NCBI GenBank assembly: GCA_951828515.1
Contig: OX639992.1
Span: 5,682,217 to 5,746,216 of the forward strand
Source of the DNA: an uncultured Poribacteria bacterium
GTDB lineage: Bacteria; Poribacteria; WGA-4E; WGA-3G
Direction of reading: 5' to 3'
Length of the DNA stretch: 64,000 nucleotides
The notes beneath the pieces were generated by a model that saw only the letters and a list, made by a program, of their open reading frames with translations, was not told where the DNA came from and searched no databases. Below are positions 6,743 through 55,641 of the stretch, piece by piece. Within the stretch, counting starts at the first letter, position 1; each line of letters opens with the position of its first letter. The translations under genes and the position numbers were made by a program.

Positions 6743-6896
6743 TCAATGTAGCAAATTAGGAGAGTCATCATTTTGTTTGTTGTAGCGCATTGCGCAAGTT
6801 GCGCGTGGACTTGCGGGGCAGTGCGCGATTGTGCCTTGTGACGGGTGATGAATCACCCGACTACAAACTTAAACGCATTTGCGATATCCTGAACGC

Positions 6897-7823
6897 ATGA
6901 ATCACTCCCAGTTAGGCAAAAAAATGCTAAAGGTACTTCCATTAGTTGAGCACAGAACACCACAAAGACGGCACCCAACATGGATTAAAGCCCGGATGCC
7001 GAGTGGTGATAACTACGCTGAACTCAAAAGACTCATGCGGAATCTGCAACTTCACACGGTCTGCGAAGAGGCGCGATGTCCGAATATCGGTGAGTGCTGG
7101 AACAGCCGCACCGCTACCTTTATGATATTAGGTGATGTTTGTACGCGTCGCTGCATGTTTTGTGCTGTGAAAAAAGGCGCGCCCGGAGGTATCGTCGATG
7201 TCGATGAACCGCGTAGGCTCGGTGAAGCCGTCGGTTACTTAAAACTCGAACACGTCGTTATCACCTCAGTCAATCGAGACGACCTTGCAGACGGTGGTGC
7301 GGGCGTCTTTGCGGAATGCATCGCCGAAGCACGGAAACATCGTCCCGGATGTACCGTGGAAGTCCTCATCCCCGACCTCGAAGGGAATTGGGATGCCCTC
7401 GCTGTCATCGTGGAAGCACGTCCTGAGGTACTCAATCATAATACAGAAACAGTTCCACGACTCTATCGCCGCGTCCGCCCGTATGCGAATTACCAACAAA
7501 CGCTGAACCTTCTCCGGACCAGCAAGCATCTGGATGCACAGATGCTCACGAAATCAGGACTTATGGTCGGCTTAGGTGAAACCGTGACAGAACTCTTAGA
7601 GACAATGGAAGACCTCCGAAATACCGAATGTGATATTCTCACCGTTGGTCAATACCTCTCCCCTTCCCCACGCCATTTGCCAATCCAACGCTATTATACC
7701 CCCGAAGAATTTGAAGAACTCAAAGAAGCAGGCATCGAAATGGGATTTCGACATGTAGAGTCGGGACCATTAGTGCGAAGCTCCTACCATGCCAGTGAAC
7801 AGGCAAGATTAGAATCGAATTAA
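6897..7823 (+). CDS. lipA: lipoyl synthase (LipA)
   Basis: Radical-SAM lipoyl synthase, which inserts two sulfurs into octanoyl groups on lipoyl domains. The auxiliary cluster motif CEEARCPNIGEC and the radical-SAM CTRRCMFC motif are both present. Further family marks are NHNTETVPRLY, the SGLMVGLGE region and the C-terminal SGPLVRSSYHA. No ribosome binding site decides the start. A TTG at 6879, the ATG at 6897 and an ATG at 6924 are all in frame; 6897 is chosen provisionally. It follows the tRNA-Sec gene on the same strand, with about 150 bp of repeat-like spacer. No lipB is seen nearby. Confidence 0.95.
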   Translation: MNHSQLGKKMLKVLPLVEHRTPQRRHPTWIKARMPSGDNYAELKRLMRNLQLHTVCEEARCPNIGECWNSRTATFMILGDVCTRRCMFCAVKKGAPGGIVDVDEPRRLGEAVGYLKLEHVVITSVNRDDLADGGAGVFAECIAEARKHRPGCTVEVLIPDLEGNWDALAVIVEARPEVLNHNTETVPRLYRRVRPYANYQQTLNLLRTSKHLDAQMLTKSGLMVGLGETVTELLETMEDLRNTECDILTVGQYLSPSPRHLPIQRYYTPEEFEELKEAGIEMGFRHVESGPLVRSSYHASEQARLESN

Positions 7824-7905: not shown

Positions 7906-8023
7906 AATATCTAAAGTATCTATTTTTGCAAAAATGCGAAATGTCTCGCGTTTCCTTCACGACACGGTTTCTAAAGCAGTAAGAAATTGGGATTGTTTCA
8001 CTATCAGAACAAGGAGCGGGAAT

Positions 8024-9751
8024 ATGAAAAGGCACATTTTTTCTGGAGCGGCACACTATTGTTTACAGATAAAGCACGTAAGTTTATTTATTTTTGTAGT
8101 AAGTTTAGCACTTGTTACGATGCCAAGTACCATCACAGCTGGCACTACACCGGATATCCAACCTGTCACGAACGAGATGTTACTCTCATCACAAGACGAC
8201 GCCGAGAGCTGGCTGATGTATGGACGGGACTACAGAAGCTGGCGATATAGCGAACTCACACAAGTTAACACTGAAAACGTCAAAAAACTCGTCCCGAAAT
8301 GGGCATTCCAAATTGGAACACCCTTCGATAAGTTTGAATGTACCCCACTTGTCGTCAATGGTGTGATGATCATCACGACCCCTTATAGCACCATCTACGC
8401 TGTGGATGCGAGAACCGGTAAGGAGATATGGCGGTATGATTATGAGCTCCCGGACGATTTAGCGATCTGCTGCGGTATGGTGAATCGAGGGGCTGCTATC
8501 TTAGGCGATAAAATCTTTTGGGTAACGCTTGATGCCCATCTCCTCGCCTTGGATGCGAAAACCGGCACAGTGCTATGGGACAGAGTTGTCGGTGATCTCA
8601 CTAACGCGGAATCCCTCACCGTCGCGCCGTTAGTCGTCAAAGATAAAGTGATTGTCGGTATATCAGGTGCGGAATACGGGATCCGAGGCTACATTGATGC
8701 GTATTACGCTGAGACAGGTGAACAGGCGTGGCGGTTTTACACTGTCCCTTCAAAAGACGAACCCGGTGGCGATACCTGGGAAGGCGATTCATGGATGACA
8801 GGTGGCGGATCCGCTTGGGTTACCGGTTCGTATGATCCTGAATTGAATCTCGTCTACTGGGGAACGGGTAATCCCGCGCCAGACTGGAACGGTGCTGTCC
8901 GGAGAGGCGACAACCTCTATACTGACTGTATCGTTGCGTTGGATGCCGATACAGGAAAGCTCAATTGGTACTTCCAAGCTACACCGCACGATCTGTGGGA
9001 TTGGGACGGTGTGAGTGAACCGGTCCTGATCGATATGGAAATAGATGGTGCGCCGGTTAAAGCGTTGATGCAAGCGAATCGCAACGGTTATTTTTATGTG
9101 CTTGACAGGACCAACGGAAAATTTCTATATGCAAGCACTTACTGCGAACAGAACTGGACCGGGGGACTCGATGAAAATGGTCGTCCTACTGTCCTCCCCG
9201 ACGTGTCTACCTCAGAAGAAGGCACGATCCGCGTCTGTCCGGGTGTTGAAGGCGGAAAGAACTGGCCCCCTTCAGCCTATAATCCTCTCACAAATTATCT
9301 CTATGTTCCTTCGCTGGAACTCTGCGGCTCCTATCACCAAGGGCGCGTCTTCTACATAAAAGGATTGCCCTACGTGGGAAGCGGTATGACAGCGGAGAAA
9401 GACGAAGACGGTGATATGATGATGTGGGGACATATCAGCGCGATCGAAGTTTCTACAGGTGAGATTAAATGGCGACACAAAACGAACTTCCCACAATGGG
9501 GTGGATGCCTCACAACTGCGGGAGGTCTCGTTTTTGCCGGCGATTTAGAGGGCAGATTTATGGCATTGTCAGCAGAAACCGGCGAAGTGCTTTGGGATTT
9601 CCAGACCGGCTCCGGGGTTCTCGCACCCGCAATTACCTATCAACTCGACGGCGTCCAATACGTTGCGATAGCGTCAGGCGCTGTGAAGTATGCTGAAGTT
9701 AATGCTCGTCAAGGCGGCACTCTTTTTGTGTTCGCGCTCTTTGATGAGTAG
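8024..9751 (+). CDS. PQQ-dependent alcohol dehydrogenase, lanthanide-type (XoxF/PedH-like)
   Basis: A 575-residue periplasmic quinoprotein of the methanol/ethanol dehydrogenase family, which oxidises primary alcohols with pyrroloquinoline quinone. The ATG at 8024 is chosen over the longer frame from 7934 because AAGGAG lies eight bases upstream and a signal peptide starts there (hydrophobic LFIFVVSLALV). The adjacent cysteines C149-C150 that form the family's vicinal disulfide are present, as are the W-motif propeller blades. The likely catalytic segment HDLWDWDG places Asp326 and Asp328 two residues apart. In characterised enzymes the second Asp marks lanthanide rather than calcium use, so lanthanide dependence is inferred. 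Genes for an XoxJ/MxaJ-like protein and a cytochrome c follow. PQQ synthesis genes are not in the window. Confidence 0.9.
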   Translation: MKRHIFSGAAHYCLQIKHVSLFIFVVSLALVTMPSTITAGTTPDIQPVTNEMLLSSQDDAESWLMYGRDYRSWRYSELTQVNTENVKKLVPKWAFQIGTPFDKFECTPLVVNGVMIITTPYSTIYAVDARTGKEIWRYDYELPDDLAICCGMVNRGAAILGDKIFWVTLDAHLLALDAKTGTVLWDRVVGDLTNAESLTVAPLVVKDKVIVGISGAEYGIRGYIDAYYAETGEQAWRFYTVPSKDEPGGDTWEGDSWMTGGGSAWVTGSYDPELNLVYWGTGNPAPDWNGAVRRGDNLYTDCIVALDADTGKLNWYFQATPHDLWDWDGVSEPVLIDMEIDGAPVKALMQANRNGYFYVLDRTNGKFLYASTYCEQNWTGGLDENGRPTVLPDVSTSEEGTIRVCPGVEGGKNWPPSAYNPLTNYLYVPSLELCGSYHQGRVFYIKGLPYVGSGMTAEKDEDGDMMMWGHISAIEVSTGEIKWRHKTNFPQWGGCLTTAGGLVFAGDLEGRFMALSAETGEVLWDFQTGSGVLAPAITYQLDGVQYVAIASGAVKYAEVNARQGGTLFVFALFDE

Positions 9752-9784
9752 CCATCAGCCATCGGCTATCGGCTTTCAGCCAGA
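9752..9784. repeat. heptanucleotide repeat tract
   Basis: After the dehydrogenase stop the sequence reads CATCAGC, CATCGGC, TATCGGC, TTTCAGC: four steps of the NNTCRGY heptad, here with C as last base. Confidence 0.75.
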
Positions 9785-9856
9785 GAACGTAGTGGCATTG
9801 TAACTGTCAGCAATCACCACACGAACTACTGACGGGTAAAAAAAGGAGGTTGCCAC

Positions 9857-10732
9857 GTGAAATACTTTACCACTTTGTGGATCGCGCTTCTCATATTGTC
9901 CATTTTAATGCTATCCAATGCCAACGCCAATAGTGCTTTGGAAGAGATTCGGGCAAAGGGAGTTTTAACAGTCTGTATGGATGTCCGAAATCTGCCCTAC
10001 TCCAATGCGGATCCGGAAGTTCCTGGATTATATGTTGAGATAGCACACTTACTGGCAGAGGAACTCGGTGTTAAGTTGGAACTCCACTGGCTTAACACCC
10101 TCCGTGACAGCCTGCTTGCTGATATGATCCGCGGGCATTGCGACTGTGTGATCGGAGTTCCTATTGAGGAGCGTGCGATGAGTGAAGCAATTCAATTGGG
10201 AAAAAACGTTGATTTCTCTACCCCGTTTTACGGCACCGGCTACGTATTGGTAAAACAGAAAAGTAACCAAGTGTCCCCTAAAACGCTGGAGGACATTAAG
10301 TTAGAAACGATTGGAACAGAAGCGGGTTCTATCGCAAGCGATGTCCTTCGACAGATGGGATATAATCGTCGCGTGTATCGCTCACAAATTGCTGTCTTGG
10401 ACGCTCTCAAGAAAGGGCAAATTGCTTACGCGTGTGTCTGGTCAAATATTGGATGGCTGATTGAAAAGGGTTCCCGAATTCAGCAGGCAAAACAAACAGA
10501 CACTGCTTACCCTGAATTAGAGATTGTCGAAGGATTCGTTCCTGAAGCGCGTCTCCGTTGGAATATCGCGATTGCTTTTAGCAAAGATACATCAACACGA
10601 GAAACACGCGAACTTCAAGACGTTGTTAACACAATTATCGAACAGAAGTGGAGTGAAGAAAAACTCAAAGAACTCTCTGAGAAGTATCATTTACCTTACT
10701 TCGCTCCGTTTCAGGAGGATGAAAAGAAATGA
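9857..10732 (+). CDS. XoxJ/MxaJ-like periplasmic protein (quinoprotein-associated)
   Basis: A 291-residue periplasmic solute-binding-fold protein. It starts at GTG 9857 behind a strong GGAGGT, with a signal peptide ending near NANANS. The mature part has the type II binding-protein layout, starting LRAKGVLTVCMDVRNLPYSN-like (here IRAKGVLTVCMDVRNLPYSN), as in the MxaJ/XoxJ group found beside PQQ methanol dehydrogenases. Those proteins are thought to help dehydrogenase maturation or cofactor loading rather than amino-acid transport. It sits between the dehydrogenase and the cytochrome and overlaps the cytochrome gene by the four bases ATGA, so the two are translationally coupled. No ABC permease is present, which argues against a transporter role. 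Confidence 0.85.
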   Translation: MKYFTTLWIALLILSILMLSNANANSALEEIRAKGVLTVCMDVRNLPYSNADPEVPGLYVEIAHLLAEELGVKLELHWLNTLRDSLLADMIRGHCDCVIGVPIEERAMSEAIQLGKNVDFSTPFYGTGYVLVKQKSNQVSPKTLEDIKLETIGTEAGSIASDVLRQMGYNRRVYRSQIAVLDALKKGQIAYACVWSNIGWLIEKGSRIQQAKQTDTAYPELEIVEGFVPEARLRWNIAIAFSKDTSTRETRELQDVVNTIIEQKWSEEKLKELSEKYHLPYFAPFQEDEKK

Positions 10733-11652
10733 TGTATTATTCTACCGATGTTACAACTTCTACCGTCCGAATCACGTGGCGCGTTTTCCTCCTCTCTCTG
10801 GGTGTAAGTCTCTTCTTTTTCCCGCTCGTAAATGCCCAGGACTTAGAGGTGGATATTGCCCCCGCAGCACCGAGAGACGTTAATTATGAAGAAGACGTTA
10901 TTGATGGCGCGTTCTACTTCCGTTTGATGTGTTGGGGGTGCCACGCCGCACAAACACGCGGTGGCAAAGCACCCGATCTCTTTAAACCGCAGTGGCTCTA
11001 CGGGTGGACCGATGACGGTATCTTCCAAACCGTATTCAACGGACTTCCAGGGACACAGATGCAAAAGTTTGGTGGCAAACTTTCTGATGAGGCGATCAAC
11101 ATGATTGTCGGCTACGTCCGCTCGGAACAAGCGAAAGCGGCAGGAGTCTCTTTGGAAGAGATAAAATCTACTGAGGATTGGACACCGTATATGAAAGGCG
11201 ACACCAAAGCGGGAGAAGCCATCTTCTTCTCGGAAGGGTACGCTTGTGGTAAGTGCCACACCGTTCACGGGAGAGGTGCCACCGGCACGGGCAGCGAAAT
11301 AGGTCCCGATATGACTCATGTCGCTCGCACCCGCTCGCCTCAATTCATTGTTGAGTCCATCCTCAATCCGCGCTCCTATATCGCACCTGAATATGAAATG
11401 ATAACCATTTTCACTAAAGATGGAAAGGAGATCACTGGTCGGAAGCGTCAACAGTATGATCACAGAGACAGATTAGACCCTGAAACACTCCAGATACTCG
11501 ACGATTCTGGAAAGTTGTGGACAACCTACTTCACAAAGGATATACGGAGCAGCAGCGTGCCACAAGCAGGTGTTATGCCTGAAAACTTCGCAGATATTCT
11601 TTCAGTAAAGCAGATGCACGATCTTCTGGCGTATCTGTTTACGTTGAAATAG
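10729..11652 (+). CDS. dihaem cytochrome c, probable electron acceptor of the dehydrogenase
   Basis: A 307-residue exported cytochrome c with a signal peptide (VFLLSLGVSLFFFPLVNA) and two covalent haem sites, CWGCH (residues 68-72) and CGKCH (173-177). Met residues in the regions following each site could be axial ligands. The first half has the FYFRLMCWGCH...GKAPDL layout of class I cytochromes and the second resembles haem-binding domains next to quinoproteins. Its start overlaps the stop of the XoxJ-like gene, so it belongs to the same operon and is inferred to take electrons from the PQQ enzyme, as XoxG does. It is longer than typical single-haem XoxG. Confidence 0.88.
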   Translation: MMYYSTDVTTSTVRITWRVFLLSLGVSLFFFPLVNAQDLEVDIAPAAPRDVNYEEDVIDGAFYFRLMCWGCHAAQTRGGKAPDLFKPQWLYGWTDDGIFQTVFNGLPGTQMQKFGGKLSDEAINMIVGYVRSEQAKAAGVSLEEIKSTEDWTPYMKGDTKAGEAIFFSEGYACGKCHTVHGRGATGTGSEIGPDMTHVARTRSPQFIVESILNPRSYIAPEYEMITIFTKDGKEITGRKRQQYDHRDRLDPETLQILDDSGKLWTTYFTKDIRSSSVPQAGVMPENFADILSVKQMHDLLAYLFTLK

Positions 11653-11700
11653 CCGTCGGCAGTCGGGTCGCTTCGCTATGCTCACTCTCGGCAGTCGGTC
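11653..11700. repeat. degenerate heptanucleotide tract
   Basis: After the cytochrome stop, CGTCGGC, AGTCGGG and later CTCTCGGCAGTCGG repeat the NNTCRGY pattern around a hairpin-like TCGCTTCGCTATGCTCACTC segment. Confidence 0.5.
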
Positions 11701-11942: not shown

Positions 11943-12020
11943 ACGGGGTGAAAAAGAGGTTTTTGCTTGAAAAATCCGTGTTTAAACGTCCATGACTTAT
12001 CAGGTAGCAACTTGGGTTAA

Positions 12021-12157
12021 TATAGTAAAACCCATAATTAAGTTTACACTCTGTAATGCGGCGAGGTTAGGGGGAAACGCCCTATCAAAAACACCTCGCC
12101 AGCAATGTGGGGTTTTGTGTTTTCGAGAGTGTGCAAGTATTTTCGGGCTTTACTATA
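12021..12157. mobile_element. family I element with an interrupted stem
   Basis: Terminal repeats TATAGTAAAACCC and GGGCTTTACTATA bound a 137 bp family I copy. Its central hairpin GGCGAGGTT/CCTCGCC is interrupted by a module reading GGGGGAAACGCCCTATC followed by AAAAACAC. It lies 95 bp before the first dapB gene. An open frame runs through it into dapB but is not a credible N-terminus. Confidence 0.85.
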
Positions 12158-12252
12158 ATACCAAAAACTTAGCTTGTAATGGAAGGCGGATCCATATCAT
12201 AAACCGTCAAAATTCAAACCGATGTCATTTAACCGCGAGGAAGAATAAAAAT

Positions 12253-13056
12253 ATGATTGGTGTAATTATTAATGGGGCATGTGGCCGTATGGGACGACTC
12301 ATTATTCGAGGCGTTACTGAACAAGCCGATATGGAAATCGTTGGAGCGATTGAGTTCCCTGAACACCCACAGATCGGGAGTGATGCGGGGGTTGTTGCCG
12401 GTATCGGAGAAATAGGGGTCGCCGTTACAGGGAATCTTGAAGCGGTACTTGAAAACGCGGATGTTGTCATCGAATTCTCGAAACCTGAGGCAACCCTGCA
12501 GCACCTCCGACAGGTCGCCAATGCCGACAAAGCGATGATAATCGCAACAACTGGATATGACCCCGATGAACTTGAGACTATCAGAGAACTCGCATCACAG
12601 ATCCGTTGTGTCATGGCACCGAATATGAGTCTCGGTGTCAATGTGATGATCCAAGCACTGGAATTAATCGCCAAAGCCCTCGGGGACGATTACGACATTG
12701 AGGTGATAGAGGCACATCACAATCACAAAGCAGATTCACCGAGCGGCACTGCACTCCGTTTAGCGGAGACGGTTGCGACAGCATTGGCGCGTGATTTAGA
12801 TGAGGTGGGTGTCTACGGCAGACACGGCCTCGTTGGCGCGAGACCGAAAAAGCAGATCGGTATCCATGCAGTCCGAGGTGGTGATATTGCGGGTGATCAT
12901 ACGGTGATGTTCGCGACAGAGGGTGAACAATTAAGTGTCGTCCATCGAGCACACAGTCCAGAGGCTTTCGCAAAAGGCGCGATTCGCGCAGCAAGATGGG
13001 TCATCGATGCTCCCAAAGGGTTACACGATGTCAGCGAAGTCCTGTTTCAGGAGTAA
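12253..13056 (+). CDS. dapB: 4-hydroxy-tetrahydrodipicolinate reductase (copy 1)
   Basis: DapB reduces hydroxy-tetrahydrodipicolinate with NAD(P)H in the lysine/diaminopimelate pathway. The 267-residue length is normal. It has the N-terminal nucleotide-binding motif GACGRMG (about residues 8-14), ATTGYDPDEL, APNMSLGVNVM, the catalytic and substrate region EAHHNHKADSPSGTA, and GIHAVRGGDIAGDHTVMF. The ATG at 12253 is chosen because GAGGAAG precedes it and the homologous start of copy 2 aligns there; the frame extends upstream only through a repeat element. A second, closely related dapB starts 95 bp after this one ends. Confidence 0.95.
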   Translation: MIGVIINGACGRMGRLIIRGVTEQADMEIVGAIEFPEHPQIGSDAGVVAGIGEIGVAVTGNLEAVLENADVVIEFSKPEATLQHLRQVANADKAMIIATTGYDPDELETIRELASQIRCVMAPNMSLGVNVMIQALELIAKALGDDYDIEVIEAHHNHKADSPSGTALRLAETVATALARDLDEVGVYGRHGLVGARPKKQIGIHAVRGGDIAGDHTVMFATEGEQLSVVHRAHSPEAFAKGAIRAARWVIDAPKGLHDVSEVLFQE

Positions 13057-13151: not shown

Positions 13152-13949
13152 ATGATTCGCGTAGTTATCACCGGTGTTTGTGGTCGTATGGGACGTTGTA
13201 TCACGCGAGGTATTGCCCAACACGCCGATATGCAACTCATCGGGGCTGTCCAATACCCTTCGCATCCACAGATCGGGAATGATGCGGGTATTGTTGCTGG
13301 TACTGGTGAGATTGGAGTCGCCATTACAGGCAAACTTGACGATGTGCTTCATTGTTCAGATGTTGTCATCGATTTTTCAAAACCGAAAGCAACCTTGGAG
13401 CACCTCCAACAAATCGTCAATGCCGACAAAGCCCTGGTCCTTGGAACAACCGGTTTCAGCCCCGACGAATTAGCGACCATCAAAACTCTCGCATCACAGA
13501 TTCGGTGTGTTATGGCACCAAACATGAGCCTCGGGGTCAATGTGATGCTTCAAGCATTGGAATTAATTGCCAAAACCCTCGGAAATGATTATAATATTGA
13601 AGTGATAGAGGCACATCACAATCACAAAGCAGATTCACCGAGCGGCACTGCACTCCGTGTAGCGGAGACTATTACCACAGCATTTGAACAAGATTTAGAT
13701 GAGGTAGGTGTTTACGGTCGCCACGGCATCGTTGGTGCGAGACCGAAGAAGCAGATCGGTATTCATGCAGTTCGAGGTGGTGATATTGCGGGTGATCATA
13801 CGGTGATGTTCGCAACAGAGGGTGAGCAATTAAGCGTCGTCCACCGAGCACACAGTCCAGAGGCTTTCGCAAAAGGCGCGATTCGCGCAGCGAAATGGGT
13901 CATCGATGCTCCGAAAGGGTTACACGATGTCAGCGAAGTCCTTTTTTAA
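13152..13949 (+). CDS. dapB: 4-hydroxy-tetrahydrodipicolinate reductase (copy 2)
   Basis: A second complete DapB of 265 residues with the same motifs as copy 1: GVCGRMG, GTTGFSPDEL, APNMSLGVNVM, EAHHNHKADSPSGTA and GGDIAGDHTVMF. The leader before it (GTCAAAGTTCAAACC...) also resembles the leader of copy 1, so the duplicated unit included the upstream region. The downstream half is nearly identical between the copies at DNA level, while the first 250 bases differ much more. All catalytic residues seem kept in both, so neither is an obvious pseudogene. Confidence 0.95.
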   Translation: MIRVVITGVCGRMGRCITRGIAQHADMQLIGAVQYPSHPQIGNDAGIVAGTGEIGVAITGKLDDVLHCSDVVIDFSKPKATLEHLQQIVNADKALVLGTTGFSPDELATIKTLASQIRCVMAPNMSLGVNVMLQALELIAKTLGNDYNIEVIEAHHNHKADSPSGTALRVAETITTAFEQDLDEVGVYGRHGIVGARPKKQIGIHAVRGGDIAGDHTVMFATEGEQLSVVHRAHSPEAFAKGAIRAAKWVIDAPKGLHDVSEVLF

Positions 13950-55600: not shown

Positions 55601-55641
55601 TCGGTTGTCAGCGGATTAGCCATCGGCAGTCAGCTGTCGGG
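55599..55641. repeat. heptanucleotide repeat tract
   Basis: GATCGGT, TGTCAGC, later CATCGGC, AGTCAGC, TGTCGGG: the NNTCRGY heptad begins within the VWA gene's stop codon. Confidence 0.65.

Follow-up and report, generated by a model that had tools for sequence, protein, structure and literature searches.

A 64,000-nucleotide stretch of an uncultured Poribacteria genome (G000:C1:5682217-5746216; hereafter the window) carries a cassette of three plus-strand genes, encoding a quinoprotein dehydrogenase, a periplasmic binding protein of the XoxJ/MxaJ type (J) and a dihaem cytochrome c. We read this cassette, with a probability of roughly 60%, as a lanthanide-capable module for periplasmic alcohol or aldehyde oxidation that would depend on scavenged pyrroloquinoline quinone (PQQ). 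The source organism is a marine-sponge bacterium of a common type whose genome is a single contig of 5.85 Mb. Most of what is known of lanthanide enzymes comes from a small number of Proteobacteria and Verrucomicrobia. Our literature search found no treatment of XoxF in Poribacteria; one paper mentions both, in passages unrelated to each other. The features of the cassette are as follows.

8024..9751, plus strand: predicted PQQ-dependent lanthanide-type alcohol dehydrogenase, 575 residues, with an N-terminal signal-like segment (TIGR03075; residue mapping to 4MAE and MxaF; model superposed on PedH).
8999..9007, plus strand: codons for Asp326-Trp327-Asp328, the putative catalytic base and extra lanthanide ligand (counted from 8024; aligned to XoxF Asp299/Asp301).
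9857..10732, plus strand: J, a divergent XoxJ/MxaJ-like periplasmic binding protein, 291 residues, GTG start (TIGR03871, below its cut-off; XoxJ/MxaJ profile built here).
10729..11652, plus strand: dihaem cytochrome c, 307 residues, with a cbb3-III-like domain and a TIGR02603 haem domain (PF13442, PF00034 and TIGR02603, all above their cut-offs).

Residues of the dehydrogenase are numbered from the ATG at 8024; an alternative in-frame ATG upstream, at 7934, is possible. The protein scores 650.5 bits against TIGR03075 (PQQ methanol/ethanol dehydrogenase; curated cut-off 480), far above chance, and is the sole full-length match of its kind in its own genome. By sequence, its best solved relatives are lanthanide enzymes, PedH (447 bits) and XoxF. 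An earlier note on this DNA had pointed to vicinal Cys149-Cys150 and to Asp326-Trp-Asp328, and both are present exactly as claimed. They align to Cys104-Cys105, Asp299 and Asp301 of the SolV XoxF structure (4MAE), and the same columns in MxaF hold Cys103-Cys104, Asp303 and Ala305; from these alignments we assign the Cys pair as the disulfide, Asp326 as the catalytic base and Asp328 as the lanthanide Asp, the two Asp assignments agreeing with the note. The column of Asp328 is Thr in two quinohaemoprotein-type enzymes. All four metal ligands are present, Glu217, Asn283, Asp326 and Asp328 corresponding to Glu172, Asn256, Asp299 and Asp301 of the SolV enzyme. E105, R155, T199, S214, W265 and R353 align to E55, R110, T154, S169, W238 and R326 of 4MAE, and every PQQ contact checked by alignment with solved enzymes is retained. 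The full site is invariant in the lineage: all 19 positions checked are identical across 24 poribacterial copies, one of which comes from another family of the order.

The Asp two residues past the catalytic Asp is described as essential for lanthanide coordination in passages of PMC11996626 and PMC10875860, and its presence has been taken to indicate at least facultative lanthanide use (PMC11996626). Judged by these residues, the poribacterial dehydrogenase probably uses a lanthanide. Its AlphaFold2 model (predicted local distance difference test score, pLDDT, 85) has PedH as its closest structural match (Z 53.5, 1.6 A over 521 residues). XoxF, MxaF and calcium enzymes come only slightly lower, and across the lanthanide and calcium enzymes Z runs from 53.5 to 49, so that, as modelled, the fold alone cannot decide the metal. 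An enzyme of the same architecture might naturally use calcium, or either metal, the second Asp being inherited and not tied to lanthanides. The near-equal fit to both kinds of enzyme would agree with this, as would the fact that no lanthanide-specific uptake gene was identified and that sequence does not fix the metal with certainty. We nevertheless consider it unlikely, given that the set of lanthanide ligands is complete and does not vary, and that the extra Asp has the published standing just described.

An outside source of the cofactor would be needed. PqqC is absent from all 38 genomes of the genus in a profile search at the curated cut-off of 240 bits; as a control, the same model gave 313-358 bits in two genomes holding relatives. 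True PqqB and PqqE were not found in the 24 genus genomes searched, in which only distant paralogues occur. The earlier note had counted the lack of any PQQ source as grounds for giving up its proposal. The missing synthesis genes bear out half of that objection, and are no refutation of PQQ use, since bacteria with the PQQ importer PqqU mostly lack synthesis as well: PQQ synthesis genes occur in only 23% of them (PMC12124388). With no synthesis genes recovered in these searches, the PQQ would therefore come from sponge neighbours, and we infer scavenging rather than self-sufficiency. The source genome has 17 matches to TonB-dependent receptors.

Elsewhere in the phylum, the sole trace of PqqC is a stub in genome G037. 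We considered it as a sign of PQQ synthesis at the level of the order and found it insufficient: it sits at the end of a contig, covers half of the model with 83 bits (cut-off 240), also scores 41 bits on the CADD model, and lies in a genome with 7% contamination. A different contig of G037 carries a radical SAM gene resembling pqqE, with no recognisable pqq neighbours within the 9 kb read.

The absence of PqqC from the genus, together with its absence from 22 of the 24 genomes that hold relatives, would also be expected if the protein had the quinoprotein fold and functioned with no PQQ or with a different quinone, in the manner of the 'acido-empty-quinoproteins', the name that NCBIfam gives to its nearest family. 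The group A model of that family, TIGR04528, is indeed the second-best match of the dehydrogenase, and PQQ and metal residues have been lost in some relatives. The score of 510.8 bits, however, misses the cut-off of 650; all PQQ contacts checked are kept and invariant in Poribacteria; and a planctomycete homologue of the cassette, described below, adjoins pqqBCDE. We regard a PQQ-less protein as quite improbable, and continue with the reading of a lanthanide-capable enzyme that uses scavenged PQQ.

To place the dehydrogenase we built trees from 69 and 32 sequences, a limited reference set. In these trees XoxF, MxaF, PedH and the quinohaemoprotein dehydrogenases stand apart from a second group that unites a large acidobacterial family with enzymes of Poribacteria and planctomycetes, and whose nearest NCBIfam relative is named for 'empty' quinoproteins. 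A tree constrained to hold the poribacterial enzymes inside the XoxF/MxaF clade is rejected (approximately unbiased test, p-AU 0.012). The nearest acidobacterial relatives belong to Bryobacterales (about 49-54% identity). No closer relative was found among 592 plasmid records, all of which were below 60% identity.

This bears directly on the proposal, made in the earlier note, that the three genes are a XoxF-J-G operon. A true XoxF-XoxJ-XoxG operon for methanol oxidation would explain the order dehydrogenase-J-cytochrome and the lanthanide signature, and the J protein does resemble those encoded beside XoxF5 and cox-linked dehydrogenases. The phylogeny, which the note had itself suggested as a check, places the dehydrogenase with a largely acidobacterial family, outside XoxF/MxaF. 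The third gene does not fit either: its product, correctly described in the note as a dihaem cytochrome c, carries two CXXCH motifs (CWGCH and CGKCH) and scores 26 bits, with a cut-off of 147.8, on the MoxG model TIGR03872, which describes the single-haem cytochrome cL (XoxG/MxaG). We therefore think it very improbable that the cassette is a XoxF operon in the strict sense. The note was right that this gene and J share an ATGA overlap (10729-10732). A homologue of the dihaem cytochrome lies just upstream of the dehydrogenase in Bryobacterales and likewise beside most other acidobacterial relatives, and no strong J match was found in the acidobacterial genomes searched, which argues for the dehydrogenase-cytochrome pair as the shared core.

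The assignment of the second gene as XoxJ/MxaJ-like holds in part. For this comparison we built a XoxJ/MxaJ profile and set it beside one for amino-acid solute-binding proteins. The J of the window scores 91 bits on the former and 37 on the latter; poribacterial J proteins as a group score 84-124 and 28-49 bits, and Escherichia coli amino-acid binding proteins reach 37-44 bits on the XoxJ/MxaJ profile. Cys40 and Cys95 of J occupy positions that are common to XoxJ/MxaJ and that the E. coli proteins lack. J thus resembles XoxJ/MxaJ more closely than it does amino-acid binding proteins, although it falls below the curated cut-offs for the former. The AlphaFold2 model of J was poor (pLDDT 56) and unfit for structural comparison, and the best J relative on plasmid records has only 29% identity.

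Searching with J revealed a second complete dehydrogenase-J-dihaem cytochrome cassette in one planctomycete (G108:C174, L218/L219; isolate casp150-mb.46). The J profile, at E 1e-15, found nothing beyond this cassette in 392 Planctomycetota genomes. In G108, pqqB follows the cassette within 0.3 kb, and pqqC, pqqD and pqqE another 2.3 kb on, all above curated cut-offs. Since this homologous cassette neighbours pqqBCDE, it ties the cassette to PQQ. The trees do not show the poribacterial and planctomycete dehydrogenases to be sister groups, and they do not reject it either (p-AU 0.225). The planctomycete J gene (L218 5619-8003), between the quinoprotein dehydrogenase and the dihaem cytochrome and adjoining pqqB, encodes a triple J; we know of no other such triple J.

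Within the poribacterial genus the dehydrogenase occurs in 26 of 38 genomes and, wherever the flanks are readable, at the same site, between lipA on one side and dapB (a pair in the window) on the other. The two borders lie outside the system.

6879..7823, plus strand: lipA (lipoyl synthase), upstream border (Pfam LIAS_N, Radical_SAM; same neighbour in congeners).
11992..13056, plus strand: dapB, downstream border (Pfam DapB_N, DapB_C; directly after lipA where the cassette is missing).

In 10 of the 12 genomes without the dehydrogenase, lipA leads straight into dapB. Two of these ten, G015 and G010, retain the final 41-45 codons of the cytochrome gene at this site, a remnant from which we conclude that the cassette was deleted there. 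Where it is kept, the ratio of nonsynonymous to synonymous substitutions (dN/dS) relative to congeners is 0.052 for the dehydrogenase, 0.058 for lipA and 0.11 for J and the cytochrome. The dehydrogenase is under strong purifying selection and evolves as slowly as the housekeeping gene lipA; the cassette is old within this genus, can be dispensed with, and is strongly constrained wherever it has been retained.

Two damaged copies were seen. In G022, one of the 26 genomes (L076/L109, a 4.15 kb contig), a deletion fuses the dehydrogenase at about residue 331 to residue 92 of the cytochrome, with J gone; this may reflect gene decay or faulty assembly. L065 (G030:C155) 9613-10860, from a different family of the order, holds a related dehydrogenase gene interrupted by many stops and frame changes, its pieces having 34-74% identity; it looks like a decayed copy.

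Several results weigh against a lanthanide-capable, PQQ-scavenging module. Some acidobacterial and other relatives (L138-L167) keep Asp-Trp-Asp after losing the Cys-Cys pair, with the metal Glu replaced by Asp or Gly, so that DxD by itself is weak evidence; it should be read jointly with the remaining metal ligands. No characterised member of the dehydrogenase's branch was found. The best NCBIfam match of the window's J, TIGR03871, gives 70.9 bits (cut-off 212), and TIGR03870 gives 40 bits (cut-off 258); J is therefore XoxJ-like but divergent. At least 10 congeners have lost the cassette by deletion, so it is dispensable. Finally, PqqU of E. coli is a full-length TonB-dependent transporter with Tyr99, Arg304 and Arg365, and no importer of this type could be recognised in the genus with that protein as query, which found only partial similarities of 20-44 bits.

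Taking both sides together, we propose that the dehydrogenase would be exported and that its eight-bladed propeller would hold PQQ above a metal ion, most likely a lanthanide, while a small alcohol or aldehyde is oxidised. Methanol is a possible substrate, and nothing in our analysis favours it. XoxJ/MxaJ proteins are thought to hold the apo-dehydrogenase and to help PQQ and metal enter it (PMC12997753), and Methylorubrum lacking xoxJ or xoxG behaves like a strain without XoxF (PMC7391723). By analogy, J may bind the apo-enzyme and help to load it with PQQ and metal, and the dihaem cytochrome would accept electrons from reduced PQQ and hand them to the respiratory chain. The PQQ itself would be taken up from the sponge surroundings and not made by the cell. 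A more specific version of this proposal, which we offer only tentatively, is that of a lanthanide quinoprotein obligately sustained by cross-feeding, on a branch apart from XoxF, MxaF and PedH, served by a J and a dihaem cytochrome of its own and by community PQQ imported by a transporter other than PqqU.

Some further features of the locus were noted. Downstream of the cassette, dapB forms a tandem pair (window 11992-13056 and 13152-13949); several congeners have a single dapB at this site (e.g. G020, G018, G002, G019 and G010). Short repeats resembling GCC(A/G)TCGGC(T/A)(A/G)TCGG lie at 9751-9774, 11652-11698 and 55619-55640 of the window, the first two directly 3' of the dehydrogenase and cytochrome genes, with 8 observed and 1.6 expected by chance. 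Promoter and terminator scans gave matches no more frequent than chance.

A complete lanthanide-type site under strong selection is now placed in a major lineage of sponge symbionts. PQQ-repeat proteins have been counted among 'eukaryote-like proteins' in papers on sponges; the poribacterial PQQ-repeat protein of this cassette is a genuine quinoprotein dehydrogenase. That the enzyme is kept intact in organisms apparently unable to make its cofactor leads to a testable prediction of cofactor exchange inside sponges.

Compared with known systems, the cassette shares with the XoxF-XoxJ-XoxG lanthanide methanol dehydrogenase systems (XoxF1-5) the fold, the PQQ site, a J-type partner, a cytochrome partner and the set of four metal ligands, the extra Asp among them; it differs in that identity is about 40%, the poribacterial enzyme falls outside the XoxF/MxaF clade and its cytochrome is dihaem, not cytochrome cL. 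The lanthanide ethanol dehydrogenase PedH/ExaF is the top solved match by both sequence and structure and has the DxD signature; identity, however, is 42-44%, the tree branch is separate and the cytochrome is different. The acidobacterial quinoproteins near TIGR04528, from sponge Bryobacterales and others, lie on the same side of the tree at 46-54% identity, with DWD and, beside most of them, a homologue of the dihaem cytochrome. In contrast to the poribacterial cassette, the acidobacterial genomes searched gave no strong J match, the cytochrome gene is upstream of the dehydrogenase, and in several of these quinoproteins the Cys pair and the metal Glu are missing. The planctomycete cassette has the same gene order and a dehydrogenase with DYD, at identities of 52% for the dehydrogenase, 38% for the best J domain and 35% for the cytochrome, whereas its J is a single protein of 795 residues with three J-like domains and pqqB, pqqC, pqqD and pqqE lie downstream. 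The poribacterial cassette resembles XoxF-J-G in its layout and in its working parts, and is not identical with it.

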